Assembly (NCBI GenBank): GCA_019638575.1
Contig: JAHBTN010000007.1
Location: 89,064 to 153,063, forward strand
DNA length: 64,000 nucleotides
Direction of reading: 5' to 3'
Source of the DNA: Ferruginibacter sp.
GTDB taxonomy: Bacteria; Bacteroidota; Bacteroidia; Chitinophagales; Chitinophagaceae
The translations under genes and the position numbers were made by a program. The number at the start of each line of letters is the position of its first letter. Within the stretch, counting starts at the first letter, position 1. The notes beneath the pieces were generated by a model. The model searched no databases. It saw only the letters and a program-made list of their open reading frames with translations, and was not told the origin of the DNA. Of this stretch, positions 22,267 through 57,898 are shown piece by piece.

Positions 22267-22309
22267 GTTACAAAATTAAAATGTTTGTTATTGAATTGCG
22301 TAACATAAG

Positions 22310-35759: not shown

Positions 35760-35770
35760 AATTTGTTCAA

Positions 35771-39930: not shown

Positions 39931-40002
39931 TGGGGAATGTCTTTTTTTTAACAAAAAATACGTTGAATTACTTACTAAAATACGCCATTTAACGTAATGT
40001 AG

Positions 40003-40017
40003 TTGGTTAAACATTTG
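40003..40017 (+). promoter_or_regulatory. promoter-like TTGG-N7-TTTG before the RteC-like gene
   Basis: TTGG, seven bases, TTTG, ending 25 bp before the ATG at 40043. This core recurs in the four composite elements at 41275, 50267, 55208 and 57806, but here the upstream TTACCCC box is absent. TACGTT (39959-39964) and AACGTA form a small inverted repeat just upstream. Confidence 0.45.
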
Positions 40018-40042: not shown

Positions 40043-41251
40043 ATGGAAAGTTTAGTAAAGACAAATGGTCCCGCCAAAAAAGTAGCGTTCAATAAGCCAC
40101 TGTTGAATCCTGATAACGAGCTTCACGCCGGCTCAGGAATAACTGTTCAGCAAGCCCTTTATAAATGGTATAGCTTATTTAATCAGGGAATGAATAATAA
40201 GAATCCCGGTGAATGGATTTTTCCTGAATTGGCACAGGAAGAGTTACTTAACAGCTTCCAAACTGATATTGAATTGATTCCATCGGTCTTAATGAATCAA
40301 TTTATTTCTACTTCAGTTATTCAAGATAAGAAACAATATATCCGTTTACTTCAGGCATTGTTAATTAACCTCAGCGATTGCTTGTTTATAAAGCAAGGTG
40401 ATTTCCGTAAAGTTTGCAATCCGATCGAAAACACATTACAGTTCCTGCAAAATTTCTTTTCCCAGTATTTTGATTTGGATAGCCGAATGACAAAATTTTG
40501 TTTCCATCAGTTTTGCGGATGCTTTAAATTAAAATTGGAATATTGGCAAATAAAATTAAATCATTCATCACTACTTGATGCATTGAATGAATCCCTGGAA
40601 GATAAATTTACCTCGCCCGAAAACAACATTACTTACCGGAAGATTGGTTATATAAAGTACTTGCTGCAGAAGATAGAATCAGCGGCAACTGTCGTATCTG
40701 AAAAATATGTGAGAGAAGTATTCATTTACAATAATTTTAATTCACTATGTTTTATTAATTACGAAATAGGATTAATTAAAGTAGGGCTTGTTAAATTTCA
40801 ATTTAACGAGCATGCTATTTCATTCCTGCAGTCCGAGCAGGAAAGGGTTGACAAACTAAAAATAAAATCTGGTATTTCTTTTGATCCACGGCAACCTTCT
40901 TTAAAAAAACAATTGGCAGACTGGCTCAACGAAGAAATAAAACAAATAGAATTAAAAAACAGAAAGGCTAATGACAAGTGCTTGCAACTTGACCCAGATT
41001 CAAAAATTCAAACTTCGCTATCAGTGGCAAAGCTGGCAGTTTTAATAAGATTGCTGGTGGTTGACAAAATAATAATCAATAAAAGTGTGGCTCCAATGCT
41101 ACGAACACTTGCCAAGATGTTTACCACTTTGCAAAAAGATGAAATTTCCTTTGGCAGTCTGGAAACGAAGTATCATGCACCGGATAAAGCAACCTTGAAT
41201 AATATGAAAGAATTGCTTGGAAAGTGGATTAATATTTTGGGGAAGTTATAA
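40043..41251 (+). CDS. RteC-like regulator of the conjugative element
   Basis: A 402-residue cytoplasmic protein. The C-terminal third resembles RteC of Bacteroides conjugative transposons: LSVAKLAVLIRLLVVDKIII, then a final helix-turn-helix-like part with YHAPDKATLNNMKELLGKW. RteC activates excision and transfer genes. It opens the tra block and faces the same way. Similarity is weak along the N-terminal half, so I call it RteC-like. Confidence 0.6.
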   Translation: MESLVKTNGPAKKVAFNKPLLNPDNELHAGSGITVQQALYKWYSLFNQGMNNKNPGEWIFPELAQEELLNSFQTDIELIPSVLMNQFISTSVIQDKKQYIRLLQALLINLSDCLFIKQGDFRKVCNPIENTLQFLQNFFSQYFDLDSRMTKFCFHQFCGCFKLKLEYWQIKLNHSSLLDALNESLEDKFTSPENNITYRKIGYIKYLLQKIESAATVVSEKYVREVFIYNNFNSLCFINYEIGLIKVGLVKFQFNEHAISFLQSEQERVDKLKIKSGISFDPRQPSLKKQLADWLNEEIKQIELKNRKANDKCLQLDPDSKIQTSLSVAKLAVLIRLLVVDKIIINKSVAPMLRTLAKMFTTLQKDEISFGSLETKYHAPDKATLNNMKELLGKWINILGKL

Positions 41252-41274: not shown

Positions 41275-41326
41275 GGGTAGCGCAACCTGGCTTACCCCAA
41301 CTTAAACCATTTTGGAAAAATATTTG
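41275..41326 (+). promoter_or_regulatory. composite tra promoter element, copy A
   Basis: GGGTAG...ACC dyad, then CTTACCCC (41291-41298), 13 nt, TTGG (41312), 7 nt, TTTG (41323-41326). It ends 31 bp before the ATG at 41358. See copies B, C and D. Confidence 0.6.
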
Positions 41327-41357
41327 TAAGCTTAATAATAACATTAAATCATTTTGT

Positions 41358-41825
41358 ATGCTACAATCAATTTCATGGAGCCAGTACATAACAACAATAA
41401 CAACTTTACTGATGCTTTATTATTGCTATGTTGGATTTAAATATTTCCGATGGGAAATTCTTAATATCATAGGCATTAAAAAAGTAGAAGATGATATAAT
41501 AGCTATTCCAGCTTTCAGTAATACTAATCAATCCTTCAAAAAAGAAAACCCTGAGGACTATCTACCCAAACCTGGTTTAGAAATTGATATTTCACCTGTC
41601 GTACAATCATTTACTGATGAAGTACAAGCTTATTTATCTGAATCCGGAAGTAAAAACATGCAAAAAGATGAACTATTGGGTTCACTCCGGTTTATTCTTT
41701 CAAAATATCCGGCATTGAAAAGTTCTGATTGCAAAGAAGAATTGCTTCAGTTTATTATAGAACAAACGAATTTTCAGTACCCCGACATGCTTCAACTAGA
41801 TGAAGTTAGCAGGTTGTGGCACTGA
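41358..41825 (+). CDS. single-pass membrane protein of the tra block
   Basis: I do not recognise this 155-residue product. One membrane helix at about 9-28 is followed by a cytoplasmic-type soluble region of 125 residues with QYPDMLQL near the end. It is the first gene after element A and precedes the TraE-like gene, so a role in the transfer apparatus is likely. Confidence 0.6.
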   Translation: MLQSISWSQYITTITTLLMLYYCYVGFKYFRWEILNIIGIKKVEDDIIAIPAFSNTNQSFKKENPEDYLPKPGLEIDISPVVQSFTDEVQAYLSESGSKNMQKDELLGSLRFILSKYPALKSSDCKEELLQFIIEQTNFQYPDMLQLDEVSRLWH

Positions 41826-41926
41826 TGAAAAACTAATGCTTCATTGTGCCGGTGCAGGAGAAACAAGTGCGAGTGGATGACACAATGGAGCATTCTTTTA
41901 TTTTTTATCAAAAAACAAAACAGATT

Positions 41927-42259
41927 ATGAAAAATGTGAGAGAAAAACGCAGTATTAAAAAACATTTGTTTTCTGCTTGTGCAACTTTTTTAACCATGCT
42001 GCTTGCTTTCGTTGCTAATGCACAGGACGGCAATGCTGGTATCAATGAGGCAAATACCAAGGTACGAAGCTATTTTTCGGCAGGCACAAACCTGATGTAT
42101 GCCGTTGGAGCAATTGTGGGTTTAATTGGTGCCATCAAAGTGTATCAAAAATGGAACAGCGGCGATCATGATACGGGGAAAGTTGCGGCTGCATGGTTTG
42201 GCAGTTGTGTCTTTCTTGTTATTGTTGCTACTGTAATTCGTTCTTTCTTTGGGGTATAA
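41927..42259 (+). CDS. traE: TraE-like conjugation protein (DUF4134)
   Basis: The ATG at 41927 gives a 110-residue protein with a signal sequence (about 13-32, ending near VANAQ) and two membrane helices: LMYAVGAIVGLIGAIKVYQKWNSGDHD and FLVIVATVIRSFFGV. This is the DUF4134 (TraE) pattern of Bacteroidetes conjugative elements, comparable to VirB2/VirB3-type components. An upstream ATG at 41846 would add 27 residues before the signal and is unlikely. Confidence 0.85.
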   Translation: MKNVREKRSIKKHLFSACATFLTMLLAFVANAQDGNAGINEANTKVRSYFSAGTNLMYAVGAIVGLIGAIKVYQKWNSGDHDTGKVAAAWFGSCVFLVIVATVIRSFFGV

Positions 42260-42300
42260 AAATTCCCAAAATTATCTGATGAAACAAAAATACATTTTTT

Positions 42301-42789
42301 ATGAAGGAACTGCTCATTCAAAAACTCCAGCAATACATTATTGCAAACAATCCTGATTTATTAGTCGAGTTACAGGGTGAAAGAAAAGTTACCAGTTATC
42401 TCCAAAGCAAGGTAGCAGGTATTAACGAAACTTTGGAACAGTTACTGAAGAATAAAACACCTGAATACATTATTGAGGAGGTTTGTATGGAAGAACTTAC
42501 TGAGGATTTAAGGCCTTCAAGATACAATTACCTTAAACAAATACTGGAAGAAGAATTTAAACAACAATATGAACAGTTCAGGGATGTTGGTATTCTGACC
42601 ACTGAAATTGTCAACCTTATACAGGTTTGTAAACCTGTATTTGAGGATTTAAATTTTTCTGAGGAAAATGAGGACAATCAATTTACCCGGTATGTAATAA
42701 TAGGTTCAATCAGTGGGTACCTGGAAAGTAATAGCGAGAAAGAAAAAGTGAGCAATGGGTTACAGCAGTCAACAGAAACTGAAAGATAA
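42301..42789 (+). CDS. unrecognised acidic helical protein
   Basis: A 162-residue protein without signal or membrane segment, rich in Glu and Gln. Its end overlaps the start of the methyltransferase-helicase by 35 bp in another frame, so the two are probably co-translated. It may be a partner or regulator of that enzyme. Confidence 0.6.
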
Positions 42790-45700
42790 TATTGAAGCTA
42801 TAAGAATCGCACTTGAGTTTGATCAGCAACAAAAGCTTTCTGATGCTCAGGTGCATTCTTTACAAAAGTATTCAGGTTTTGGTGGATTAAAAGCAATATT
42901 ATTCCCTGATGCTCCTAAAGAAGAATGGGTAAAACTAAAAGCATCCAAAGAAGATTTAAAACTTAATCCGCAGATAATTGAGCTACATGAATTATTAAAG
43001 CAACATTTTAGCGAAGCCGAATATAAAAAAGTGGTAGATTCTATTAAGAACAGTATTCTCACAGCATTCTATACTCCCGATGTCGTTCCACAAACATTAT
43101 TCAGAGCCCTAAAAGAACAAGAGATTGAGCCTACAAATATTTATGAGCCAAGCAGCGGTGCAGGCGTATTTGTTACAGAAGCTGCAAAAACATTTTCATC
43201 AATTCAACATTTAACAGCCGTTGAGAAAGATATTTTATCGGGACGGGTATTGACTGCGCTCAGCAGTTCGATACCCGTCCCTGTTTCTGTACAAATAAAG
43301 GGTTTTGAAGAATCATCCAATGAAGAGAATGGAAATTATGATTTGGTTGTAAGCAATATTCCTTTTGGAAATTTCAGGGTGCATGATGAATCTATAAACA
43401 ATGAAGCCCTGACTGGTAAAATCCATAATTACTTTTTCGCCAAAGGGCTTGATAAATTAAAGGAAGGCGGGTTGCTGGCTTATATCACTACTGATACTTT
43501 TCTTAACAGCCCCTCCAATAAGGAAGCCAGGGAATATATTTTTCATAATGCAAACTTCGTCAGCCTGAATGTGATGCCAGACAACCTGATGAAAGATACG
43601 GGGAATACGGAAGCTCCATCTCACTTATTGATACTTCAAAAAAATTCAGAAAAAAAAGATTTAAGCACTCATGAGCAATACCTGATTGAGACAACAGAAA
43701 AAGAAAATGAATTTGGAAAATATACTATAAATAAATGGCTTTCCAATCATCCAGAAGTGATATTGGGAGATGAAATAAAACCAGGAAAGAATCAATACGG
43801 CAAAGCAAATGAAACGGTTTGGCAACATGGCGACATAAATCAGATTGCAGCAAGACTTGCTGATACGATTAACCAGGGAATCAAACAGCGATTCAATAAT
43901 AAATCTTTTTTTCAGCCGGTTGTTCAGGAAATAAAATTATCCGGTAAGCTGTTGACTTACCTGCCCATGCCAGAAACCAAACCCGATAACAGTTCTGTTC
44001 AGTTGGGTTTGTTTGATATAGCCCCCGCCGTCAATATCAACCGGGCAATGGCCTACATAAATCATTTGGATGATACGGCCGTGCAAAAGCAATCCGCAAG
44101 GGTATTAAATATTATCAGGACAAAAGATAAACCTGAGCATGAAGCGATCGTGTTGTTGACCGCAAAATCAATCGCCTTTAAACAGTATGTTTATAAACTT
44201 TATTCCAATGTTGAAGAGATACAGTTTGGAGCAAACTGGATGAGTGCTTCTGCATTGCATAATGAATTAAAAGCATTGCCCGAACGATTAAATGAATACG
44301 GGCATCACTTTTATAATGAAGGTGATGCCGTTTTTCATGTCGGCTTTGGTAAGACAAATGAACTAAATGTTATTGAGAGCCCAAATCTGTATCACAGAGA
44401 AGGCACTTTAATTGTTCATGACAACCGGGTTGGTTTTATTTCCTACTTAGCACCGGAAGATAACAAACCAGTGTTTCTTCCAAGTCTATATGATAAAAAG
44501 GATTTGGGGTTTTACAAGCAATACACAGTCATCAGGGATATGTATTTGCAGCTTGCAGATAAGGAAAACACAGAGAATATTGAATTGCCAGATTTAAGAA
44601 ACCAATTGAACGAATCTTACGATGCATTAATAAAAGGCTATGGTCTGCTCAATTCATCAGTAAACAGACAAAGGATATTGAAAGATGAAGCTTTTGGTTT
44701 AATCATGCTGGCTTCATTGGAAAGAAAGGAAGGAGAACAATATGTAAAGGCCGATATTCTTACACAATCACTAATTCAAAAGCAGGAAGCCTTTTATACA
44801 GATAATCCTTTGGAAGCGCTGGCAAAAAGCCTGAATGATAAAGGAAGAGTTGATATAGAATTTATTGCAGCAGCCACAGAAACTTCGGAATTGGAAGCTA
44901 TTGAATCATTGGGCAATCACATTTATAAAAACCCTTCCAGCCTTGAATGGGAAACAGCCGACCAGTTTTTAAGCGGCAATGTAGTAATGAAGTTCAGGGC
45001 AGCAGCGGAAGTGGCAAATAAAAATCCAACCGATATTCAGTTGCTGAGAAGTTGGCAGGCATTGGAAAAAATACAGCCTGAAAAAATTCCTTTCGAACTT
45101 TTGGATTTTAATTTGGGAGAAAGATGGATACCCCAGGACTATTACAACAATTTTGCATCGCATCTTTTTGAACTGGATACAGAAGTAAATTATTTTCCTT
45201 CGCTTGATACCTTCAAAGTAAAAACAAGCAGTACAAATGCAAAAACCAACCAGGAATATGCAGTAACCACCAAAGCCGGCAAAACATATTATGGCCATAC
45301 TATCCTTGAACATGCTCTTGAAAACACAACACCATTTTATACCTATGAAGTTGATTTGGGTGATAAAACCATCCGGGTGCCCGATAATGATGCTATTCAG
45401 TTAGCAAATCAAAAGATTGAAAGTATAAGAAATTATTTTACAGAATGGTTGAATGAATTACCATCAGATGATAAAAGCCATCTTGAAAAATTGTACAACG
45501 ATACCTTTAATTGCTATGTGTTGAGGGAATATGATGGCAGTCATTTACAATTCCCCGGTTTGGATAGAAAAAGATTAGACATTGAAGATTTATACAGTTC
45601 ACAGAAAAATTCAGTTTGGCGTATTGTACAAAACCGGGGTGCATTGATAGATCATGAAGTGGGTTTAGGTAAAACGCTTACAATGGTCGTGGCATCACAT

Positions 45701-48250
45701 GAAATGAAACGCCTGGGCATTGCCAATAAGCCGATGATTCTGGCATTAAAAGCCAATGTTAACCAGATTGCAGAAACTTATCGCAAAGCCTATCCACATG
45801 CAAGAATTTTAGCGCCGGGTGAAAATGATTTTACTCCTGCAAAGCGATTAAGGCTTTTTCATGAAATCAAAAACAATAATTGGGATTGCATCATTCTAAC
45901 TCATGACCAGTTTGGCAAAATTCCTCAAAGCCCCGATATACAACGTCAAATCTTCCAGGCAGAACTGGATAACGTAGAAAAAGACCTTTATACATTAAAG
46001 GATATGGGTGGTGAAATATCACGTCGCATGTTAAAAGGATTGGAGATACGTAAAACCAACCTGCAGGTAAAACTTTTCGGAATACTAAGAGATATTGAAG
46101 AAAAGAAAGATGCCGGAATCAACTTTAAAGATTTGGGAATTGATCATTTGTTTGTTGATGAATCGCACAAATACAAGAACCTCACATTTACTACCAGGCA
46201 CGACAGGGTTGCCGGATTGGGAAATATGCAAGGTAGTCAGAAAGCACTGAATATGTTATTTGCCGTAAGGACTTTACAGGATAAATTTAAAAGTGATTTA
46301 TGTGTAACCTTTTTGTCCGGCACACCCATCAGCAACAGCCTAACCGAAATGTATTTGCTGTTTAAATACCTGCGGCCAAATGAAATGGAGCGGCAGCAAA
46401 TAGAAAATTTTGACGCATGGGCGGCCGTATTTGCCAGGAAAACAGTTGACTTTGAATTTTCGGTTACCAATGAAATCATTGCTAAAGAGCGTTTCCGGCA
46501 TTTTATTAAAGTACCCGAACTGGCTTTGTTCTATAATGAAATAACTGATTATAAAACTGCCAAACACATCAATCTGGATAAACCTGAAATTGATGAACAG
46601 TTGATAAATATTCCACCTACCCCGGACCAGCAGGAGTTCATTAAAAAGCTGATGGCATTTGCTAAAACAGGTGACGCTTCTTTACTAGGAAGAGCGCCGC
46701 TAACCGATGAAGAAGATAAAGGAAGGATGCTGATTGCCACCAACTATGCCAAAAAGATGGCGGCTGATATGCGGTTGATTGATTCCGTACAATATGAAGA
46801 CCACCCCAACCACAAAGTAAATGTGTGTGCCCGGAAAGTAGCTGAGTTATACCAGGAAAGCGAGAATAAAAGGGGGACCCAGATTGTATTCTGCGATATT
46901 GGCACACCAAAGAAAAACGAATTCAACATCTATGATGCTTTAAAAGAAAAACTGCTCAGCGATTTTAATATACCGGCCAATCGTATCACTTTCATTCATG
47001 ACTGGACCGACAGGCAAAAGCCAGAACTGTTTCGTAAAATGAATAATGGGGAGATAAGAATTTTATTGGGTAGCACAGAAAAAGCCGGAACCGGTTTGAA
47101 TGTACAGGCAAAAGTAATTGCCATGCACCATCTGGATATCCCTTGGAAGCCCTCTGAACTGGAACAAAGAAATGGAAGGGGAGCCAGGCAGGGAAATATA
47201 CTTGCCAAAGAAAATTATGACAATAAGGTGCGGAATTATATTTACGCAGTAGAGCAATCATTGGATAATTATAAATTCAACCTGCTGAAGAACAAGCAAA
47301 CTTTCATCAGCCAGATGAAAAACTGTGAGCTGAATGTAAGAACCATTGACGAAGGAGCCATTGATGAAAAAAGTGGAATGAATTTTTCGGAATACATAGC
47401 CATACTTTCCGGCGATACAACGCTACTGGAAAAATCGAAAATGGAAAAGAAGATAGCAGTTTTGGAAAGTTTGAGAAATGCTCATCATAAAGAAGTGATT
47501 CGTTCAAGGTTTCAATTGGAGAATTTGCAGGAAGATAAAACAAAGACAATTCAAACATTAGAGAAACTAGCATTGGATGAAAAGAGCTACAAAAAGCAGT
47601 TGCAATTTGACAAAGACGCAACAAAGCAAAATCCGATACAATTAGAAGGAATAAATTCTGCAGATGCGGAAACCATAGGAGCCTTCCTTATGAAACTCGC
47701 TGCCAACTGGAAGCCAAAAGATGGTGAAGGAAGTGAAAATAAAATTGGCTCTCTTTACGGGTTTGATTTATTTATCCGAAGGCAAAAGGAAACTTTTGAA
47801 AACAAGGGCATGTTTGAATACCGTTATCAGAATACTTTCTATGCCGAAGGTAAAGAAACAGGCATCAAATATACCTGGAACCAGGGCCACCTGAATGCAG
47901 ATAACCCTAGAATAGCCGCCCGGTATTTTCTAAATGCTATTGACCGGGTGGAAACGCTTAAAGAAAAATATCAAAAGAATTTGAAAGAACTGGAACAAAA
48001 CATTCCTATGCTGGAGCACCTTGTTGTGAAACCTTTTGAAAAAGAGGTTGAATTGACCCAGCTAAAAAAAGAGGTTTCAAAACTGGAAATGGAAATTTCC
48101 ATAAAAATCCAAGAGAACCAGATGAAGCAGCATAATGTGACAGAAGAGAATAATCTTGAGGCAAAAGAAGCTCCCGTAGTAAAAATGGAGAAATCGTTGT
48201 TACCGAAAAAGCAGGTGACGGAAGGGAAAGTGAAGGGAATTAGGATTTAA
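42755..48250 (+). CDS. giant N6-adenine methyltransferase-helicase fusion
   Basis: An 1831-residue cytoplasmic protein. Residues about 100-310 form a class I DNA methyltransferase: [11 protein letters not shown] (motif I, 130-140), and [10 protein letters not shown] (198-207) with NIPF in place of NPPF/NPPY. Residues about 950-1550 form an SF2/SNF2-type helicase: GLGKT (about 969), FVDESHKY (DESH, about 1131-1138), SGTPISNS (motif III) and QRNGRGARQ (arginine finger, about 1470). A long coiled coil and a basic tail (KSLLPKKQV) end it. Related proteins occur on plasmids and integrative elements of many bacteria and are thought to protect incoming DNA from restriction (DarB-like); that role is inferred. 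Confidence 0.85.
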
Positions 48251-48422
48251 AGTAGTAGTTATACTTTTTACTGATTACTGACTTTCTATTGATTTTTTGG
48301 TCTACTTGTTTGAGAACGAGACCTTTTATAATGAAGACCTAGATTGATTAACAGCAATAGGGCTCTATGTAGAAGAACTGCCTTAAATTACAGGTCATAA
48401 TAGAAATCAAAAAGGCATTTTT

Positions 48423-50054
48423 ATGAAAATTAATGTTTCTGCTACGGAGATATTTATACATTATGAACAGCAGTCAGTAGATAAATATCACCCGCAGTTG
48501 TCTGCACATGTCCGTTCACTTTTTCCTGCAGGTATTTACAAAGATGAACCCACAGTGAGAAAAATTATTGAAACTTATTATAATTGGTGCGCTGATACTT
48601 TCCAGAAGATAATGCTTGAAAATGATGATATGCTATTTGTTAATTATCTATTTGCGTATCACGAATCTTCTATTTTACTTTGGATAAGAACACTACAAAA
48701 AGAAAATTTACAATTTGAATTTGGTATAAGCGAGGAGGACTTAAGCCTCAATAGGAGGATATTTAAATTGGCTCTTGAGCAAACCTGCGATATAAACTAC
48801 ACAAATTCAAGTAGTGCAGCTACGGAGTTACTCCAGCAATATGATAAGGTTATCGAGGATTTGTTGTATATAGGTGAAGAGCTGTATCATGCTGTGTATT
48901 TTATAGCTGAACTGAGAATAGTATCCAAATCGTTACAAGCAGTGATTGAAGCAGATGGATTATTGCATATTACAAGAAAGGGAGAGTTAGAGCCAGTATT
49001 TAATGCGTTATTCGCCAAGATGAAAGAAGATTTTGAAAAAGGAATTATGGATACTGAGGGTGTGAAACAGCTTAAAGATGAAATACAGAAATGTTTCGCT
49101 ATTGACTACGATTTCGCTGCCCATCAAATTGTGCATATCAAGAAACATCATGATCCCAAAAATTGGGAGTTTCAAACCATTGAACCGGGTATTCTTGCAC
49201 AGAACCTTGTTCACAATGGAGTATCAAAACAAAATGCCGAGAATTTTTATGGAGGATTAACGCTAAACAAGGAAAATAAACTTGTTCTAAAAGATTCTGT
49301 TTACAAAGTTAATAGCATGGAACGCCATTTTTTCAGACCAATTCTTGAAATCTCTCAGAACGGAAAAAGGCGGCAATTGATTGGAATACAGAAATGGGGC
49401 GAAAGTATTATAGTCCTAGCAACCAATAATTTTCAGTGGAACAAGGCGCCTGATGAATGGAAACAAAACGATTCCTTTCAGCAATATCTTGAAAGAAAAT
49501 CAGACGAACATGACTCCCTGCTTGAAGACGAAGTGGACAAGGTTTTAAAAGAAACCCAAATCCCCTTTTTTAGGAATATTACTTCATTCAGTGACGGCAA
49601 AACATCGCTTAGTATAAACATTGCAGGTGTTGGCGAAATAGATTTTATATGGTTAGATATAAAACGAAACAGGATAGTTGTTGCAGATTGTAAATATAAT
49701 AGAGCACGGTATGATATGATAGCCTTTTCTGCAGATTATTCAAATTTCAAGGATAGTTACGAGAAAAAGATTACCAACAAAGCAAAATGGATTAATGGAA
49801 ATCGGGGTATTGTATATAAGCATTTCGAACGGCAGTTTCCCGGATTGAATATCGACATACACCAATTTGAGATTGAGGAATTATTTATTATCAACACGCC
49901 TACTTTTTATATGTATTTGAATCGAGTAAATACTGTATGTTTTTTCAATCTCCAAGAATTCATGTTAAACGATTATATACATTCCGATCTAATTCTCCAT
50001 ATTAAGAATGGATATAAAACAAAAATTAAAATCATACCATACCCTTATTTTTAG
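48423..50054 (+). CDS. PD-(D/E)XK-type nuclease domain protein, unassigned
   Basis: I do not recognise this 543-residue protein as a whole. In the C-terminal third, GVGEIDFIWLDIKRNRIVVA followed by DCKYNRARYD (about 400-430) shows the layout of a PD-(D/E)XK nuclease core: an Asp in the first strand and D-C-K in the second, with a Glu upstream (LLEDEVDKVL). The N-terminal 350 residues are helical and unassigned. It lies alone, with 170 and 316 bp of non-coding DNA on its two sides, between the methyltransferase-helicase and TraF, which suggests a separately acquired cargo gene, possibly defensive. It is not similar to known Tra proteins. Confidence 0.6.
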   Translation: MKINVSATEIFIHYEQQSVDKYHPQLSAHVRSLFPAGIYKDEPTVRKIIETYYNWCADTFQKIMLENDDMLFVNYLFAYHESSILLWIRTLQKENLQFEFGISEEDLSLNRRIFKLALEQTCDINYTNSSSAATELLQQYDKVIEDLLYIGEELYHAVYFIAELRIVSKSLQAVIEADGLLHITRKGELEPVFNALFAKMKEDFEKGIMDTEGVKQLKDEIQKCFAIDYDFAAHQIVHIKKHHDPKNWEFQTIEPGILAQNLVHNGVSKQNAENFYGGLTLNKENKLVLKDSVYKVNSMERHFFRPILEISQNGKRRQLIGIQKWGESIIVLATNNFQWNKAPDEWKQNDSFQQYLERKSDEHDSLLEDEVDKVLKETQIPFFRNITSFSDGKTSLSINIAGVGEIDFIWLDIKRNRIVVADCKYNRARYDMIAFSADYSNFKDSYEKKITNKAKWINGNRGIVYKHFERQFPGLNIDIHQFEIEELFIINTPTFYMYLNRVNTVCFFNLQEFMLNDYIHSDLILHIKNGYKTKIKIIPYPYF

Positions 50055-50266
50055 AATAAAAAGAAGCGGGAGCACTTGGAAACAGGGTACATTAAAGTGG
50101 TGATTTATTTCTTATCTATCACCTACAAGAATTCCTAACAAGAGCAAACATTATCTAGTTCCCTCATCCAACATTTCTATCCGATAGAGATTACTCGATT
50201 CCAATCGTTTTCCACTCGAACTGCATCTTGATTTTATCACCTTATCTTTCTCATCTTCAATACATT
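50055..50266. other. non-coding stretch before tra element B
   Basis: No gene seen. GGTGAT (50098) and ATCACC (50119) form a weak 6-bp stem with a long loop; otherwise plain AT-rich sequence. Confidence 0.4.
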
Positions 50267-50324
50267 AAACAGGGTTGCCCTACCCTGTTTACCCCATCAC
50301 CACAATCTATTGGATAAATTTTTG
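50267..50324 (+). promoter_or_regulatory. composite tra promoter element, copy B
   Basis: AAACAGGGT - 6 nt - ACCCTGTTT, a perfect inverted repeat, whose right arm runs into TTTACCCC (50288-50295). Then 14 nt, TTGG (50310), 7 nt, TTTG (50321-50324), ending 46 bp before the ATG of traF. Confidence 0.65.
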
Positions 50325-50370
50325 TAGTTATTTTCTTTAACACTACTGGTTAAAATGTGAGGAAGGAAAT

Positions 50371-50706
50371 ATGAGCAACAGTGTATATCAAATCAATAAA
50401 GGCATTAATAAGCCAATCGAGTTTAAAGGGCTAAAAGCACAATACATCTGGTACCTGGGTGGGGGGTTGGTTGTACTATTAATATTCTTCGCAGTTATTT
50501 ATATAATTGGAGTAAATGTATTCATCTGTCTGATAATAATTATCACTCTGGCTACTGTCTTATTCATGTATGTATATAAACTCAGCCGTACTTATGGTGA
50601 ATTTGGTTTAATGAAAAAAGTGGCTAAGAAGGCGGTGCCGAAAGTAATTAAAAGTTATTCCATCACCCTTTTGAAAAAGCAATTGATGCATGAAAAACCT
50701 GTTTGA
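50371..50706 (+). CDS. traF: TraF-like conjugation protein (DUF4133)
   Basis: A 111-residue inner-membrane protein with two adjacent helices at about 28-65 (YIWYLGGGLVVLLIFFAVIY). N-terminal YQINKGINKPIEFKGLKAQY is characteristic of DUF4133 (TraF of CTnDOT-type elements), comparable to VirB3. It overlaps traG by 17 bp. Confidence 0.88.
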   Translation: MSNSVYQINKGINKPIEFKGLKAQYIWYLGGGLVVLLIFFAVIYIIGVNVFICLIIIITLATVLFMYVYKLSRTYGEFGLMKKVAKKAVPKVIKSYSITLLKKQLMHEKPV

Positions 50707-53110
50707 CATATTACCTGTTTATGGAGTAGAACATAATTCAATCCTGTCTAAGATGGGTGATATAACTGTAGCCTTTAAAGTTGAATTGCCGGAGTTATTT
50801 ACCATGAGCAATGATGAATACGAAGCTTTTCATCATGCCTGGATTAAAGCGATTAAAGTATTGCCCACACTTTCTATTTTGCACAAACAGGATTGGTTTA
50901 CCGAAACAAAATATAGACCATCATTTATAAACGAAGACAATAGCTTTTTAAGCAGGAGCAGTGAACGTTTTTTTAATGACCGGCCTTATTTAGACCATCA
51001 ATGTTATATCCTGCTTACAAAAAAACCGGCTAATCGTAAAGTTTCATCTTCCGTATTTTCAAGCCTGTTACGAAGAACCATCGTACCTGAAGAAACTCTG
51101 CAGCCAAAGCATTATCATGATTTTATGAACCATGTGGGGCAATTTGAAAAGATATTGACGGACAGCGGGTTTATTTCATTGCAACGATTAGCAGATGCGG
51201 AATTAGTTGGTTTGATTGTTCAGTATTTAAACTTACAAACCGGCGAACCGGTTATCCGGGATATTGAATTTAAGCCAGACTGGAAAATTGGTGAAAACTA
51301 TTGCCAGCTTTATACTATGGCCGATGCAGAATTTGTTCCGGCTTTGTGTGGGTCAAGGATTAACTATGATAAATATTCCACCGACAAAACAAAATTCAGT
51401 GTAGGTTTTGCATCACCCATCGGGCAACTGCTTTCCTGCAATCATATTTACAACCAGTTTGTTTTTATTGAAGAAGTGCAAAAAACAATGCAGAAACTGG
51501 AAAGCAAAAGATTGAGGCTGCAATCTCTTTCTGCTTATAGCCGGGAGAACGCCATTGCCAAAGAAGCAACGGATAATTTTTTGAATGAAGCCATTAGCGA
51601 GCAAAGATTACCTGTTAAGGCGCATTTTAATTTATTGGCATGGACAGATAATAAAGATGAATTGAAAAACATTAGAAATCTGTGTTCTTCTGCACTTACT
51701 CAAATGGACGCTACGCCAAAATTAGAAACAGAGGGCTCAGCACAAATATTCTGGGCTGGTATTCCGGGCAATGCTGCTGATTTCCCAATGAACGACACGT
51801 TTGATACCTTTTCGCCACAGGCATGTTGTTTTTTCAATCTGGAAACTAACTATCGCTCCTCAGTTAGTCCAATAGGTATTCGTCTTGGCGACAGGTTGAA
51901 TGGCAGGCCCGTTCATGTTGATATTTCTGATGAGCCAATGGACAAGGGCATCTGCACCAATCGTAATAAATTTATATTGGGGCCATCTGGCAGCGGAAAA
52001 TCATTCTTTACCAACCACATGGTACGCTCTTACTACGAAAAAGGCACACATATTGTACTGGTTGATGTTGGTCATTCTTACAAAGGTCTGTGCGATATGG
52101 TGAATGGTTATTATTTCACTTATTCAGAAACAAAACCAATCAAATTCAATCCCTTTTATATTGGCGAAGGCGACACATTAGACACTGAAAAAAAGGAGAG
52201 CATTAAAACCCTTTTACTGGCTCTTTGGAAAAAAGATAACGAAGTTTATAACCGTAGTGAATATGTAGCCTTATCAAATGCCTTACAATTATATTTTGAT
52301 AAGTTGGGTAATAACAAAAACATCTTTCCTTGCTTTGACAGCTTTTATGAATTTCTGAAAGATGATTTTGTAGCGGTATTAAAAACGGACCAGGTTAAAG
52401 ATAAGGATTTTGATGTGTCTAATTTTCTGTATGTGCTGAGGCCCTACTATAAAGGTGGCGAATTTGATTACCTGCTGAATGCAAAAGAGAACCTGGATTT
52501 ATTGCAACAGCGTTTTATCGTATTTGAACTGGATAATATAAAAGACCATCCGATACTCTTTCCGGTTGTAACAATCATCATCATGGAAGTATTCATTTCC
52601 AAAATGAGGAAACTGAAGGGCATACGAAAAATGATTTTGATTGAAGAAGCCTGGAAAGCTATTGCAAAAGAAGGAATGGCAGAATACATCAAGTACTTGT
52701 TTAAAACAGTAAGAAAGTTCTTTGGCGAAGCCATTGTGGTAACACAGGAGGTGGAAGATATTATTTCTTCGCCGGTAGTAAAACAAGCCATCATTAACAA
52801 CAGCGATTGTAAAATATTATTAGACCAGAGCAAGTATCAGAATAAATTCGACCAGATACAGGAATTGCTGGGATTAACAGAAAAGGAAAAAGCATTGGTA
52901 CTCTCTATCAACAAGGCAAACGACCCTACTAAAAAATATAAGGAAGTATTTATTTCATTGGGCGGGGTTTTAAGCAAAGTGTATCGTACAGAAGTATCGC
53001 CGCAAGAATACCTGGCATACACCACAGAAGAAAAAGAAAAAGTGAAGGTGCAGGCAGCAGCCCAAAAATTTGGAAATATAGAAAAAGGAATTGCATCATT
53101 AACAACTTAA
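50690..53110 (+). CDS. traG: TraG-family conjugation ATPase (VirB4-like)
   Basis: An 806-residue cytoplasmic ATPase that powers assembly of the mating apparatus. The N-terminus (FDILPVYGVEHNSILSKMGD) is typical of the family. Walker A is GPSGSGKSFFTNHM (about 431-444); Walker B is RKMILIEEAWKAI (about 645-657). Length is normal. The start overlaps traF by 17 bp, giving coupled translation. Confidence 0.94.
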   Translation: MKNLFDILPVYGVEHNSILSKMGDITVAFKVELPELFTMSNDEYEAFHHAWIKAIKVLPTLSILHKQDWFTETKYRPSFINEDNSFLSRSSERFFNDRPYLDHQCYILLTKKPANRKVSSSVFSSLLRRTIVPEETLQPKHYHDFMNHVGQFEKILTDSGFISLQRLADAELVGLIVQYLNLQTGEPVIRDIEFKPDWKIGENYCQLYTMADAEFVPALCGSRINYDKYSTDKTKFSVGFASPIGQLLSCNHIYNQFVFIEEVQKTMQKLESKRLRLQSLSAYSRENAIAKEATDNFLNEAISEQRLPVKAHFNLLAWTDNKDELKNIRNLCSSALTQMDATPKLETEGSAQIFWAGIPGNAADFPMNDTFDTFSPQACCFFNLETNYRSSVSPIGIRLGDRLNGRPVHVDISDEPMDKGICTNRNKFILGPSGSGKSFFTNHMVRSYYEKGTHIVLVDVGHSYKGLCDMVNGYYFTYSETKPIKFNPFYIGEGDTLDTEKKESIKTLLLALWKKDNEVYNRSEYVALSNALQLYFDKLGNNKNIFPCFDSFYEFLKDDFVAVLKTDQVKDKDFDVSNFLYVLRPYYKGGEFDYLLNAKENLDLLQQRFIVFELDNIKDHPILFPVVTIIIMEVFISKMRKLKGIRKMILIEEAWKAIAKEGMAEYIKYLFKTVRKFFGEAIVVTQEVEDIISSPVVKQAIINNSDCKILLDQSKYQNKFDQIQELLGLTEKEKALVLSINKANDPTKKYKEVFISLGGVLSKVYRTEVSPQEYLAYTTEEKEKVKVQAAAQKFGNIEKGIASLTT

Positions 53111-53120
53111 AATAATAACT

Positions 53121-53492
53121 ATGAAGTACATGAGCATTTTCAGCCTATTCCTGTTTACTGCCTGCAACAGTTTTACCAAAGACGAAGTAAAAGGATTTAT
53201 CCCCGGTACTTATATCCGTTCATCTCAGAATGAATTTGGGAAAGAATATGATACCCTTGTGGTATCGCTGCAAAGCAGAACGGCCAACGAGTATAAGATA
53301 ATCAGAAAATGGAGATACGACAGGGTATTGGATGGCAAGCCGGCTGAGCCTGAATATAAAGTGACTGAAAGCTCCGGCATTTATGATACCGAAAAGAAGC
53401 AATTACAGGAAACTGAAACACTTGATTTTTTCACTTTTGATGTAGAAAAGAAATTAATGTTCAATGGAGCAAATAAATTCAATAAAATATAA
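53121..53492 (+). CDS. DUF3876-like lipoprotein of the tra block
   Basis: A 123-residue lipoprotein (FLFTAC, C15) with GTYIRSSQNEFGKEYDTLVV and YDRVLDGKPAEPEYK, which match my memory of DUF3876 proteins found next to traG in Bacteroidetes elements. It may be surface-exposed or part of the outer-membrane transfer complex. It lies 10 bp after traG and 4 bp before traI. Confidence 0.75.
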   Translation: MKYMSIFSLFLFTACNSFTKDEVKGFIPGTYIRSSQNEFGKEYDTLVVSLQSRTANEYKIIRKWRYDRVLDGKPAEPEYKVTESSGIYDTEKKQLQETETLDFFTFDVEKKLMFNGANKFNKI

Positions 53493-53496
53493 TAAT

Positions 53497-54177
53497 ATGA
53501 AAAAGTTATTGGCAATGGTGAGTCTGGCTTTGTGCTGTATGTTTTTGCCAATTCAGAAAACGGAGGCACAAATTCCTATTTACGACATTATTAAGGCGGC
53601 TGTTAAAAAAGTAATTCAGGCGGTAGATCTGCAGGTGCAACGGTTACAGAATAAAACCATCTGGCTGCAGAATGCACAAAAGACATTGGAAAATAAAATG
53701 AGCCAGTTAAAGCTGGATGAAATAAAAAAATGGGTTGAGAAGCAGCGAAAACTCTATGACGACTACTACCAGGAACTCCGCAAAGTAAAAGATGCGTTGG
53801 CTTATTATCAGCGGGTAAGAGATATTATTCAGCGGCAGGTACAGATGGTGAATGAATATAAAGGGGCCTGGGCCTTGTTCAGGCAGGACAAGAATTTTAC
53901 GCAGGACGAACTGGACTATATGTATAATATCTATTCCGGCATGTTGGATGAAAGCCTTAAGAGCCTTGACCAGTTATTCCTTGTGGTAAATGCGTTTAAA
54001 ACGCAAATGACCGATGCAAAGCGGCTTGAAATTATCAATACCGTATCTGATAACCTGGAACAACAGTTTGTGGACATGAAGGAGTTTAATAACCAGAACA
54101 AAATGATTAGCCTGCAACGGGCTGTTGAGAAAGGAGAGATTGAATATGTGAGGAGGTTGTATGGGATTAGTAAATGA
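53497..54177 (+). CDS. traI: TraI-like conjugation protein
   Basis: The ATG at 53497 (MKKLLAMVS) gives a 226-residue secreted protein with a signal peptide ending near TEAQ. The body is coiled-coil helical (about 40-110), ending in a conserved block FTQDELDYMYNIYSGMLDES, DQLFLVV and MISLQR. It matches TraI of CTn elements (DUF4141-type) in position and layout. Its C-terminal block recurs in the two products at 55301-56535, so these are paralogues. A VirB5-like role is possible. Confidence 0.78.
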   Translation: MKKLLAMVSLALCCMFLPIQKTEAQIPIYDIIKAAVKKVIQAVDLQVQRLQNKTIWLQNAQKTLENKMSQLKLDEIKKWVEKQRKLYDDYYQELRKVKDALAYYQRVRDIIQRQVQMVNEYKGAWALFRQDKNFTQDELDYMYNIYSGMLDESLKSLDQLFLVVNAFKTQMTDAKRLEIINTVSDNLEQQFVDMKEFNNQNKMISLQRAVEKGEIEYVRRLYGISK

Positions 54178-54322
54178 CTTTCTATCAGCTAAGTGGTCAG
54201 AATAATCCTATTTTAATTGATTTGTCGTTAACCTATCTCAGGACGAAACAATCTGCAGCTTATTGTTGATCCGTCAAGCCAGCATAGCAAACCGAATATT
54301 GTATGCAGCATTATTTTAACAA

Positions 54323-54487
54323 TTAAGGTCTGTAGCCATTACGTTTGGCATTGTCAAGACAGTCAGTACGATTTACGTATCCCTGAGTTGAAGCTCCAAC
54401 TATATCGCCATTAGGAGCAACTCTTCTCCAACGCCATTTTCCTGCATTGTCATGATAGAATTCCCATTTATCTTTTCTATTACTCAT
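54323..54487 (-). CDS. YegP/DUF1508-like small protein
   Basis: A 54-residue minus-strand product from the ATG at 54487: it begins MSNRKDKWEFYHDNAGKWRW and continues with RVAPNGDIVGASTQGY. This is the short beta-rich DUF1508 (YegP) repeat: F-x(5-7)-G-W-R-W-R, A-NG-I-ASSEGY. One such repeat is present. Function unknown. It and the next gene run against the tra genes. Confidence 0.7.
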   Translation of the reverse strand: MSNRKDKWEFYHDNAGKWRWRRVAPNGDIVGASTQGYVNRTDCLDNAKRNGYRP

Positions 54488-54511
54488 AAAAAATTATTTT
54501 AGCTTATAAGT

Positions 54512-55081
54512 TTATAAATCATCAGTCATTTTCATGTTAGTCCTATAAATGGCAACACTTCCCAAACCGTCCGAAAAATTTGAAGTCAAATAAACAGTTA
54601 TATTTTCACCATACCAAACCAAATTTTTACCTACGGTGTTGTCAAACGGCTGGCCAAACATTGTTATTAGATAAGATTTTATTTTTTCCATTTTTTCAAT
54701 GTTCACCTTAATGTCAGTCGGTCCGCCTGGGCCGATAGTTTGAACTGTTAAAAGCAACTGTACTCCGTCTAATTTGTCATTAGCTGAAAAGTCAAACATA
54801 CATTTGTCAAAACTAACGCCGCCCCAAAATTTTAGTTTGTCATCAGTAGTTTCAAAATGATAGGGATTCGAAATGTCTTTTTTGAGGTCACATTTTTTTG
54901 ATACAAACTCAAAATTGCTTTCAAGAGGAATAGTCTTAAAAGCATATTTTTTGTCATAATCGCAAAATGTTTGAGTATATCCTTTTGCAATTAGCTTTTT
55001 GCAATTAGGTTCTTTTGTCGTCTGTGCTGAAAGTGTCAGACTACTAAGTAAAATAAGTGCTACTAAAATTTTCTTTGTCAT
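54512..55081 (-). CDS. unrecognised secreted protein
   Basis: The ATG at 55081 (MTKKILVALILLSSL) gives a 189-residue protein with a signal peptide ending near LSAQ; an upstream ATG would put 16 residues before it. The mature part has four Cys in the first 90 residues and a beta-rich layout with FGGVSFDKCMFDF-like WGGVSFDKCMFDF. I do not recognise the family. It is 24 bp upstream of the DUF1508 gene and on the same strand. Confidence 0.6.
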   Translation of the reverse strand: MTKKILVALILLSSLTLSAQTTKEPNCKKLIAKGYTQTFCDYDKKYAFKTIPLESNFEFVSKKCDLKKDISNPYHFETTDDKLKFWGGVSFDKCMFDFSANDKLDGVQLLLTVQTIGPGGPTDIKVNIEKMEKIKSYLITMFGQPFDNTVGKNLVWYGENITVYLTSNFSDGLGSVAIYRTNMKMTDDL

Positions 55082-55207
55082 AAGCTCTTTGTTTGAAAAG
55101 AGGATCGTGTCGGAAAATGTTGCATACAACTAATATATTGCCGAATGCTTAAATCAAAACATCCACCAATTTACTAAATTATACTTTATTCACGAAAATT
55201 GGGCAAC

Positions 55208-55260
55208 TAGGTAGCCCTACCCTGTTTACCCCTAAATTGTCAAAGTTGGAAAACTTTTTG
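55208..55260 (+). promoter_or_regulatory. composite tra promoter element, copy C
   Basis: GGTAG - CC - CTACC (55210-55221), then CCTGTTTACCCC ending at 55232, 13 nt, TTGG (55246), 7 nt, TTTG (55257-55260). It ends 40 bp before the ATG at 55301. Confidence 0.65.
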
Positions 55261-55300
55261 CTTTAAATGGAATTATCAGTGAAGAAAGAAAATAGTGTAT

Positions 55301-55915
55301 ATGAAAAAAATATTTCTGAATATATCAGCATTGTTATTTATTTCGATTTCATCTTATTCCCAATCAAAACAGAAACAAATGCTGAAACAGATAGCAGCCT
55401 TGCAAATCTATATCGGCTATGCAAAAAAGGGCTATGATATTGCCAGTAAAGGAATAAACACAGTTCGCAATATCAAGAAAGGTGAATTCACTCTGCATCA
55501 GGATTTTTTCAACTCATTAAAAAATGTAAATCCAGAAATCAGCAAATATGTAAAGATTGCTGATATAATTTCAATACAGGTCCATATCATCAAACAAGCA
55601 AAACAAACCCTTCAGGGCATTAAAGAAGCGAAACAGTTTACTGCGGAGGAGCTTGACTATTGCAAAACTGTATTTGATAACCTGCTGGACGAATGTGTTA
55701 AAACCATTGATGAATTGTTCCTCGTCATAACTTCCGGTAAGCTGGAAATGAAGGATGATGAAAGAATAAAACGGATTAACAAGATATTTACAGATATGCA
55801 GGATAAATATTCTTTCTGCTCCGCTTTTAGTGAAGAAACGGGTTTGCTGAGTATGCAGAGGATGAGTGAAGAGGTACAGCTTAATTACTCAAAACTTATA
55901 AACGGACTAAAATGA
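55301..55915 (+). CDS. TraI-like paralogue 2
   Basis: A 204-residue secreted protein (signal peptide 1-20, ending near SYSQ) from the ATG at 55301; a GTG two codons earlier is less likely. Mostly helical. The C-terminal block FTAEELDYCKTVFDNLLDEC, DELFLVI and LLSMQR aligns with the TraI-like protein at 53497 and with the next gene. Databases often label such proteins TerB-like; I see no tellurite evidence. Overlaps the next gene by 4 bp. Confidence 0.75.
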   Translation: MKKIFLNISALLFISISSYSQSKQKQMLKQIAALQIYIGYAKKGYDIASKGINTVRNIKKGEFTLHQDFFNSLKNVNPEISKYVKIADIISIQVHIIKQAKQTLQGIKEAKQFTAEELDYCKTVFDNLLDECVKTIDELFLVITSGKLEMKDDERIKRINKIFTDMQDKYSFCSAFSEETGLLSMQRMSEEVQLNYSKLINGLK

Positions 55916-56535
55916 AAAAGATAATGGTGATTTTGCTGATGTGCGGCATGGCTTATCAAAGCAAAGCTCAAAGTGCCGAAGTGCAACAATTGATTTTAAA
56001 CTATGAAAAGCTGTCGCAGTTCAGAAAAATTTTAAAGAATATGTATGAGGGCTATAAAATACTTTACAAAGGATACACAGCCGTAAAAGATATTTCTGAA
56101 GGCAATTTCAACCTGCATAAGAATTTTTTAGATGGCTTGCTGCAGGTTAGTCCGGCTGTTAAAAAATATAAACGGATTGCGGATATTATCAATTATCAGG
56201 TTCGTATTGTGAAGGAATATAAAGCTGCTTTTAATGAATTTAAAAATGGCAAACAATTTACGGCTGAAGAGATTGATTATATCAGCAAGATATACTCAAC
56301 CCTGTTTGATCAAAGCCTTAAGAACCTGGATGAACTGGCCATGGTGATTACAGCAGGTAAGCTGAGGATGAGCGACGATGAAAGGTTGCAGGCTATTGAC
56401 AGGATTTATGCCTCAATTGAAGACCAGTATTCATTTCTGAAAGATTTTAATGGCAATACTGCCATGCTGTCTTTACAACGGAAATCTGAACAAACAGAAA
56501 TAGCCATGTCCCGGAAAATATATGGCTTGCGTTAA
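55912..56535 (+). CDS. TraI-like paralogue 3
   Basis: A 207-residue secreted protein with a signal peptide (1-19, ending near SKAQ). It shares with the previous protein the central part (FNLHKNFLDGL versus FTLHQDFFNSL), the block FTAEEIDYISKIYSTLFDQS and the ending LSLQRKSE. The two are about equally long and clearly paralogous. Translation is coupled through the ATGA overlap. Confidence 0.75.
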   Translation: MKKIMVILLMCGMAYQSKAQSAEVQQLILNYEKLSQFRKILKNMYEGYKILYKGYTAVKDISEGNFNLHKNFLDGLLQVSPAVKKYKRIADIINYQVRIVKEYKAAFNEFKNGKQFTAEEIDYISKIYSTLFDQSLKNLDELAMVITAGKLRMSDDERLQAIDRIYASIEDQYSFLKDFNGNTAMLSLQRKSEQTEIAMSRKIYGLR

Positions 56536-56565
56536 CCGGATTGCTAAGTAAGTAAAATTGTGATT

Positions 56566-57765
56566 ATGAAATTGTGTGTAAGAATAACCTGTTTGGCAAT
56601 CATTGTATTGTTGATTCCTCACCTCGCCGAAGCACAGGGGGGCATGGCCGGAAAAATAAGGAGCCTTCAGGATGTGCTTGAAGAATTATATGATGATATG
56701 ATGCCTCTTTGCAGCAGGCTCATTGGTGTAGGCCGGGGTATAGCAGGTTTTGCAGCCACCTGGTATATCGCCTCAAGGGTGTGGGGGCATATTGCAAGGG
56801 CTGAGCCGGTAGATTTTTATCCACTGTTCCGGCCTTTTGTATTGGGATTTGCTGTATTGATATTTCCATCAGTAATTGCCATGATAAATGGGGTAATGAA
56901 GCCAACTGTTACAGCAACAGCGGCAATGGTGAAAGACTCAGATAAAGCGGTTGCCCAACTGCTGCTTATGAAAGAAGAAGCGATAAAGAAAACAGCTTAT
57001 TGGCAAATGTATGTTGGGCCTTCGGGTTCCGGTGACAGGGAGAAGTGGTATAAATATAATTATGGTGATAAAAATGAAGGCTTTTTCAAAAGCATCGGCA
57101 ACGACATCAAATTTGCATTTTCAAAATTCTCTTACAATTTCCGTAACTCCATTAAGCAATGGATGAGTGAAGTGCTGAAGGTTTTGTTTGAAGCAGCAGC
57201 ACTCTGCATCAATACTATCCGCACTTTCTACCTTATTGTACTTGCAATATTGGGCCCATTGGTATTCGGTATTGCTGTCTTTGACGGGTTTCAACATACC
57301 TTAACTGTCTGGATAGCCCGTTATCTGAATATTTTTTTGTGGTTGCCAGTTGCAAATATTTTTGGGGGCATCATTGGTAAAATTCAGGAGAATATGCTCA
57401 AAGAAGATTTGCACCAGATAGCATCCAATGGCGATACATTTTTTAGTACTACAGACACGGCATATTTAATTTTTATGATTATCGGCATCATTGGTTATTT
57501 CACCGTGCCTTCCGTTGCCAATTATATTATTCATGCCGGTGGTGGAAATACCTTGCTGTATAAAGTTACCAATATGATGAGTACATCAAGCCGTACTGTG
57601 GTTACCGGCGGTGCTTCAATGGCTAAAGATGCATTGGGCGGCGGGTATAATAAAGTAAGCAACAGCATGGCCGATGCCGGTTTGTCAAATGGATACTTTA
57701 AGGAAGGCAATAAGAATTCTGGTGGAGGAGGATATATGAAGGATAAGCTGAGTGGGAAGACATAG
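56566..57765 (+). CDS. traJ: TraJ-like conjugation membrane protein (VirB6-like)
   Basis: A 399-residue multi-pass membrane protein with an N-terminal signal (about 1-22, HLAEAQ). Hydrophobic segments are near 58-75, 90-108, 215-245, 262-285 and 300-330, followed by a Gly/Ser/Asn-rich tail. IYASRVWGHIA-like YIASRVWGHIARAEPVDFYP and LIVLAILGPLVFGIAVFDGF are typical of TraJ. The ATG at 56566 is preferred; 56560 adds two residues. Confidence 0.88.
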   Translation: MKLCVRITCLAIIVLLIPHLAEAQGGMAGKIRSLQDVLEELYDDMMPLCSRLIGVGRGIAGFAATWYIASRVWGHIARAEPVDFYPLFRPFVLGFAVLIFPSVIAMINGVMKPTVTATAAMVKDSDKAVAQLLLMKEEAIKKTAYWQMYVGPSGSGDREKWYKYNYGDKNEGFFKSIGNDIKFAFSKFSYNFRNSIKQWMSEVLKVLFEAAALCINTIRTFYLIVLAILGPLVFGIAVFDGFQHTLTVWIARYLNIFLWLPVANIFGGIIGKIQENMLKEDLHQIASNGDTFFSTTDTAYLIFMIIGIIGYFTVPSVANYIIHAGGGNTLLYKVTNMMSTSSRTVVTGGASMAKDALGGGYNKVSNSMADAGLSNGYFKEGNKNSGGGGYMKDKLSGKT

Positions 57766-57805
57766 AAATATATAAACCTGATATCATTGAAAACCAGTTG
57801 TATTA

Positions 57806-57860
57806 GGGAGGTTGTCCAACTGTGTTTACCCCAGAACTTACGGTTTTGGAAATGTTTTTG
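57806..57860 (+). promoter_or_regulatory. composite tra promoter element, copy D
   Basis: GGTTG - TC - CAAC dyad (57810-57820), TTTACCCC (57825-57832), 13 nt, TTGG (57846), 7 nt, TTTG (57857-57860). It ends 38 bp before the ATG at 57899. Confidence 0.65.
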
Positions 57861-57898
57861 CAATATTTAATTATTCTGAATTTGAAAATGTGTGCGTG

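Follow-up and report, generated by a model that had tools for sequence, protein, structure and literature searches.

The 64-kb stretch of Ferruginibacter sp. DNA analysed here, referred to throughout as the window, carries the tra genes of a conjugative element, and four of its tra units are preceded by the same composite site, in which an operator made of a dyad and a third half-site is held at a near-rigid distance from a promoter-like core. To judge from the sequence, these four sites are probably the operator-promoters of a single element-wide regulon, in which an RteC-like protein would turn on the tra units and would itself stand downstream of a LuxR-type protein. The sites and the region concerned are as follows.

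41276-41326, + strand: tra site 1 (52.1 bits), with a 23-base-pair (bp) operator at 41276-41298, a spacer of 13 nucleotides (nt) and a core at 41312-41326; ahead of the unit made up of a gene for 155 amino acids (aa) at 41358, DUF4134, DUF1896 and a 1831-aa protein
50273-50324, + strand: tra site 2 (47.8 bits), operator 50273-50295, 14-nt spacer, core 50310-50324; ahead of the DUF4133-TraG unit
55210-55260, + strand: tra site 3 (54.7 bits), operator 55210-55232, 13-nt spacer, core 55246-55260; ahead of the unit 55295/55301, 55912, TraJ
57810-57860, + strand: tra site 4 (45.0 bits), operator 57810-57832, 13-nt spacer, core 57846-57860; ahead of the TraK unit
41358-63694, + strand: tra region over which the four sites would exert control (DUF4134, DUF1896, DUF4133, TraG, TraJ, TraK, TraM, DUF4138 and others), 63694 being only the edge of the window

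The TraG, TraJ, TraK and TraM families are present in the window as profile matches (PF19044, PF07863, TIGR03781 and PF12508, respectively), and the genes for DUF4134 and DUF4133 are those which we take to be traE and traF.

Sites in the window and in related elements

An earlier note on this DNA had described four composite sites of constant order and near-constant spacing, and the places it gave for them proved exact. In the window, the pattern TTACCCC-N10-16-TTGG-N7-TTTG has + strand matches at 41292, 50289, 55226 and 57826 only, with spacers between TTACCCC and TTGG of 13, 14, 13 and 13 nt in that order; that is, 4 matches as against 0 in 100 shuffles. With the spacer set at N12-15, the whole 3.4-Mb genome holds just these four places, while a backward-read control pattern gives 1. 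Taken singly, the parts are near chance in the window: TTACCCC occurs 8 times where 6.8 are expected, and TTGG-N7-TTTG 14 times where 7.7 are expected. Three of the window copies are TTTACCCC and the first is CTTACCCC; the distances to the ATG, as counted, are 31, 46, ~40 and ~38 nt for sites 1 to 4.

A search of related elements had been set beforehand as the test that could refute the proposal, and the composite was found there ahead of the same tra units. Among the best 80 of 143 contigs with traK relatives, the closest loci are those of Sediminibacterium, Hydrotalea, Flavihumibacter and other Chitinophagaceae; of the 80, 26 carry one or more matrix sites that score above 28 bits, directly ahead of traK in 24, and in the other 54, mostly with a traK of 80% identity or less, no site exceeds 20 bits. 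Stretches of up to 40 kb were also fetched around 24 close and 9 distant RteC-like genes, which together with the window make up a scan set of 34 stretches (1.06 Mb). The matrix scan of this set gives 60 sites of 33.7-56.4 bits (maximum of the reversed-sequence control, 12.6 bits), all of which lie on the tra strand; the first gene recognised beyond each of them is one of four orthologous ones. The main matrix was partly trained on the scanned sites; when retrained on the window's four sites alone, it places 52 of the 56 other sites above its reversed-control maximum (20.9 bits), with 1 extra match. Counted over the 25 elements, window included, that have a close RteC-like protein, and where the gene is in view, a site lies ahead of the first tra gene in all 23, of DUF4133-traG in all 18 and of traK in 14 of 15, the tra proteins of the relatives being ~30-90% identical to those of the window.

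Run over 298 genomes of the order, the exact pattern has a match in 13, and its 14 matches outside the window's own genome are put down to chance: the backward-pattern control gives about as many (~19, by eye), and their matrix scores run from -34.6 to 7.7 bits, as against at least 33.7 for tra sites. A scan with the blocks but without the core gave 4 weak matches (15.1-19.2 bits), which were dropped, the reversed control itself reaching 19.9. Among the papers that searches of openly licensed literature brought up, none names this motif in its title or in the opening of its abstract.

Over 55 distinct tra sites, the operator is GGTAG-NN-CTACC-N4-TTACC, standing 12-14 nt ahead of a core GG-N7-NTTG that usually starts as TTGG. 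The dyad of the earlier note, GG(G/T)TxG...ACC, was drawn too loosely, being better given as GGTAG-NN-CTACC at a fixed offset ahead of TTACC. Expressed as the percentage of the commonest base, the dyad is G84 G69 T93 A75 G96 N N C98 T89 A98 C96 C84, after which come 4 nt, T84 T95 A100 C82 C71 and two weaker C. The core is T82 T95 G100 G100, 7 nt, T89 T100 T100 G100, where the invariance of GG and TTG and the fixed spacing must be read in the light of a scan that itself fixes and favours this core. The spacer is 13 nt in 44 sites, 14 in 8 and 12 in 3, and conservation is weak both in its sequence and in the 25 bases upstream of the operator. At positions 4 and 9, which pair across the dyad, the bases are A-T in 37 sites, T-T in 11, A-A in 4 and T-A in 1; since these positions vary without compensation, the dyad arms appear to be protein half-sites and not the two sides of an RNA stem.

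Two observations may be set beside this anatomy. T is more often found at operator position 4 in the sub-group L062b_G408, G373b, G375 and L063_G409 (5 of 7 distinct sites, vs 8 of 48; p 0.006), a sub-group that was picked after looking and that also includes L072_G417, which gave no site. Upstream of traK, in the window (~57885-57899) and in relatives, a recurrent leader AAAATGTG...ATG was seen by eye, with a mini-frame that ends at or near the traK start, perhaps for translational coupling.

The RteC-like protein and its proposed upstream regulator

The genes and promoters proposed to take part in control lie ahead of the tra region.

38302-38316, + strand: core-like ATGG-N7-TTTG ahead of the GNAT - LuxR-type gene pair
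38356-38925, + strand: GNAT-family gene, in a cassette with the LuxR-type gene
38941-39930, + strand: LuxR-type protein, its N-terminal part hydrophobic from the sequence and its GerE helix-turn-helix at residues 268-319; would bind the dyad array at 39959-39996
39959-40017, + strand: rteC-like promoter (44.9 bits), with dyads at 39959-39974 and 39981-39996, then 6 nt, then TTGG-N7-TTTG at 40003-40017
40043-41251, + strand: RteC-like protein of 402 aa, strongly conserved in its C-terminal residues 321-402; proposed binder of the four tra sites

The RteC-like protein had already been put forward as a candidate binder, and the distribution of the sites fits it. Where the first tra gene is in view, the motif is found in 23 of 23 elements that have a close RteC-like protein and in 0 of 3 that have a distant one (p 0.0004); for the LuxR-type protein, the figures are 20 of 23 with it and 3 of 3 without (p 1). 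As the sequences are related and not independent of one another, these p values serve only as guides. The motif and the RteC-like gene occur without the GNAT-LuxR cassette in L062b_G408, G373b and G375, and a LuxR relative occurs with a distant RteC-like protein, and with no motif, in d_L111, d_L106 and d_L108. Because the distribution of sites follows the close RteC-like clade, the RteC-like protein, and not the LuxR-type one, is the candidate binder. Between close elements (300 pairs), mean identity is 78% over residues 321-402 and 34% over residues 1-310, a strong conservation of the C-terminal region which is as expected if it were a DNA-binding domain tied to many sites; the distant RteC-like proteins have 28% identity to the close ones in this region. 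A close RteC-like protein occurs in only 2 of 395 genomes of the class, both from the genus of the window; a family-level search finds it in 18 of 394 genomes at E 1e-50, and viral contigs scanned with the RteC-like alignment contain no relative.

The name 'RteC-like', used in the earlier note, is not well supported: none of 11 members matches Pfam RteC (PF09357), the window protein and 10 relatives having been scanned singly up to E 10, and there are just a weak profile match and a similar predicted order of C-terminal helices. RteC is likewise absent from the 25 families listed at E 1 (last E 0.28) for 25 RteC-like members, and the own genome has no PF09357 match. With hhalign, the C-terminal region aligns in register with true RteC proteins at E 0.0025 and a probability of 12% (3% with a narrower set). 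AlphaFold2 gives a helical C-terminal domain with a mean predicted local distance difference test score of 83, whose helices at 287-313, 328-340, 349-359, 370-378 and 382-401 resemble in their order those at 159-181, 199-211, 222-233, 240-249 and 256-274 in an RteC, in a comparison by eye. Sequence and fold searches of the PDB with the RteC-like protein returned nothing significant. In other words, the protein is not a demonstrated member of the RteC family.

The earlier note had also placed the core TTGG-N7-TTTG at 40003. This core is real and lies ahead of the rteC-like gene, but its promoter is of another class, that of the LuxR array, and is not one of the tra set. The array in the window consists of two 16-bp dyads, TACGTTGAATTACTTA and TACGCCATTTAACGTA, 22 bp apart from start to start, which in most relatives take the form TA(C/G)-N10-(G/T)(T/C)A. 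Of the elements with LuxR, 24 of 25 have this array, as against 0 of 9 of those without LuxR (p 2e-7), as scored by a matrix that was trained on the same promoters and whose reversed control does not exceed 8 bits; d_L108, the one element with LuxR in which the array is missing, differs by the most diverged LuxR (36%) and another gene order. TTTG stands 17 nt beyond the second dyad in 20 of the 24 promoters and 27 nt beyond it in the other 4, and this shift of 10 nt, being one helical turn, argues for contact between protein and polymerase. The core GG-N7-TTTG occurs in 23 of the 24 (20 at the usual place, 3 at the shifted one), and of the 25 elements that carry a GNAT gene, 19 have nnGG-N7-nTTG 45-57 nt ahead of it, a count made post hoc. 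The GerE domain of the LuxR-type protein matches PF00196 at E 2.6e-16, and the protein is probably membrane-bound.

LuxR variants that share this N-terminal part but are longer also occur, at L223:1869-4064 (- strand) and as frames of 733-742 aa in G375, G408, G417, G433, G435 and G437; the L223 variant, the one scanned, has a histidine-kinase ATPase and a receiver domain ahead of GerE, and the short form may be a cut-down sensor. In L274 (G416 contig 10), a diverged LuxR-type array seems, by eye, to precede a gene of ~120 aa in place of rteC-like.

The mechanism proposed is one in which the RteC-like protein would bind the GGTAG-NN-CTACC dyad together with a third half-site, TTACC, nine bases further, and by binding just upstream of the core GG-N7-NTTG would turn on the tra units together. 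The rteC-like gene would be driven by the same core, its two dyads of other sequence being bound by the upstream LuxR-type protein, such that the signal would pass from LuxR-type to RteC-like to tra. The core itself would be read either through its sigma-54-like spacing or as an unusual primary-sigma promoter.

Several observations weigh against this proposal. The motif and the RteC-like protein share one element lineage, and part of their co-distribution could be due to descent. The traJ unit has a site in just 5 of 16 close-RteC-like elements, and the one traK without a site is that of G373b. L072_G417 and G373a have a close RteC-like protein and no site, there being no tra genes in view in either. 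The motif-bearing G396, G399, G400, G411 and G412 gave no full RteC-like match, which is explained for G411, where the start of the gene runs off the contig end, but not for the other four. The three cassette-less elements have LuxR homologues elsewhere in their genomes, which makes action in trans possible. Finally, the held-out G641, a close member (RteC-like protein at 365 bits), has no site over 20 bits; what it keeps is the dyad GGTTGTCCTACC at the usual distance from TTTG, having lost both GG and the third half-site.

In a generic search for a dyad placed ahead of TTTG, G641 gives one 4-of-5 dyad, which 99 of 2000 shuffles equal. The held-out G580, whose RteC-like protein is more distant, gives one 4-of-5 dyad and also a different, perfect dyad, GGTCATATGACC, exactly 47 bp ahead of TTTG (equalled by 21 of 2000 shuffles); this would fit a co-evolution of site and protein, as a single case found after the fact. 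The same search gave none in the distant elements d_L111, d_L106, d_L108 and G416. Upstream of the first tra gene, d_L111_G437 (L240) and d_L106_G435 (L241) have no dyad but repeats of GGGTACAA type in tandem, together with a TTGGACTTG, which are possibly the operator of another RteC-like clade.

The promoter core and competing explanations

The primary-sigma promoter of Bacteroidetes is given as TAnnTTTG in PMC9723704, and the earlier note had taken TTTG as an ordinary -7 box of this kind, a reading that is not supported. The element core is alike in being AT-rich and in ending TTTG; its TA, however, is misplaced and not conserved (position 8 is T in 29%, and position 9 A in 24%, of the 55 distinct sites), and it has an invariant GG 7 nt ahead of NTTG. 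Across 614 upstream regions, taken from 1.2 Mb of the window's own genome, there is an enrichment of TAnnTTTG (184 regions, vs 115 on the other strand and 84 reversed), TTGG-N7-TTTG occurs in 5, and no general host use of GG-N7-TTTG was found. As far as its bases indicate, the element core is not the TAnnTTTG box of the host.

It is in this regard conceivable, though at somewhat less than even likelihood, that GG-N7-NTTG is a sigma-54 (RpoN) -24/-12 promoter, at which the RteC-like and LuxR-type proteins would aid a host activator ATPase and not the recruitment of a primary sigma factor; this alternative concerns the core only and is compatible with the regulon proposed above. Sigma-54 -24/-12 promoters have the form GG-N10-G(C). 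GG and G stand at this spacing in 55 of 55 distinct tra sites, the spacing being fixed by the scan, and RpoN is present in 31 of 31 genomes tested; together with the GG-N7-TTTG of the rteC-like promoters, the absence of the TA and the rarity of TTGG-N7-TTTG in host upstream regions, these features favour sigma-54. Against it, C follows the G in only 27 of the 55 sites, CAC is not seen after GG, where AAA is commonest, and the operators abut the core and do not lie far upstream. Moreover, among the matches listed for 29 genomes, no strong PF00158 activator lies on the fetched element stretches, the one weak match (39 bits) being in an 848-aa frame of G434 contig 3, and many are listed elsewhere in these genomes. 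The upstream regions of the host show only a mild peak of TGG-N8-TTGC (12, vs 8 on the other strand), and in the pooled loci it is found in 35 regions vs 27 on the other strand, many of the 35 being, by eye, the element's own promoters. A described likeness is motif SM4 of Flavobacterium psychrophilum, identified with sigma-54 -24/-12 promoters in PMC9723704. Shared with promoters of this kind are the spacing GG-N10-G and RpoN in the hosts.

It may only tentatively be suggested that, in this family of conjugative elements, the whole transfer programme (LuxR-type, rteC-like and tra) is run from its own core, GG-N7-NTTG, of sigma-54 spacing and little used by the host primary sigma factor, with GerE and RteC-like proteins as the activators and not AAA+ ATPases, which would make it a case of non-classical sigma-54 activation or an unrecognised promoter class. 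Separately, on G401 contig 22, G409 contig 10, G641 contig 69 and G580 contig 9, RpoN is encoded a second time, ~1 kb away from the gene of a sigma-54 activator.

Repression of the tra units by the RteC-like protein through these sites is unlikely. The site data by themselves do not tell activation from repression, position alone offering a hint: the operators lie upstream of the core and the start, not over them, and near-rigid phasing to a non-standard core would be typical of activation. True RteC, furthermore, is a positive regulator according to PMC1976400 and PMC10865816.

Direct binding and activation of the tra sites by the LuxR-type protein, with some other role for the RteC-like protein, is quite improbable. 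Its attraction is that the same cassette is present in 22 of 25 close-RteC-like elements and that the GerE DNA-binding domain is clear, but there are the three motif-bearing elements without the cassette and the three distant LuxR-bearing elements without the motif, and the LuxR-type protein tracks another array, that upstream of rteC-like. There is very little likelihood that the blocks are simply kept by descent, as the relatedness of the elements and their tra proteins might suggest, or act in RNA as a leader hairpin, given that four unlike places in one element share the blocks but not the spacers or flanks, and given the uncompensated arm positions.

Neighbouring genes, known systems and meaning

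Elsewhere in the window, a single AcrB-family efflux gene is present as two consecutive frames (15726-18971, - strand; profile parts 2-417 and 419-1020), and metal-handling genes at 3665-22960 comprise HMA with a pyridine-nucleotide reductase, which would be MerA-like, a P-type ATPase and an HMA-MauE protein. Weak matches to HEPN_Apea and Abi_2, under the cut-off, lie at 33780-36433, perhaps a defence island adjoining the regulators.

The closest known parallel to the proposed RteC-like regulon is CTnDOT, a conjugative transposon of Bacteroides. According to PMC1976400, RteB activates rteC there, and the product of rteC controls genes for excision as well as transfer; PMC10865816 describes RteC as an activator of excision-operon genes. 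The two are alike in a two-step cascade, here a proposed one, from an upstream regulator to an RteC-type gene to the transfer genes, and in their tra families. They differ in that the proposed top tier here is a LuxR/GerE protein and not the RteA/RteB two-component pair, in that the RteC-like protein lacks a Pfam RteC match, and in that the proposed sites stand at several tra units and not at an excision operon such as RteC is described as activating (PMC10865816). The array ahead of rteC-like may resemble the tandem dyads of the NarL/LuxR family, in the general respect that a GerE protein goes with paired 16-bp TAC-type dyads, in the window 22 bp apart.

Among the conjugative elements of Bacteroidota, CTnDOT and its relatives are, to our knowledge, the only ones for which the control of transfer is known in detail. 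The sites described here would provide a base-level code for another lineage, consisting of an operator, its spacing, a candidate binder and an upstream regulator, in which natural swaps among elements separate the two regulatory tiers. Such a code would predict which regulator can switch on which elements, and it poses a sharp question about the sigma factor by which the core is read.

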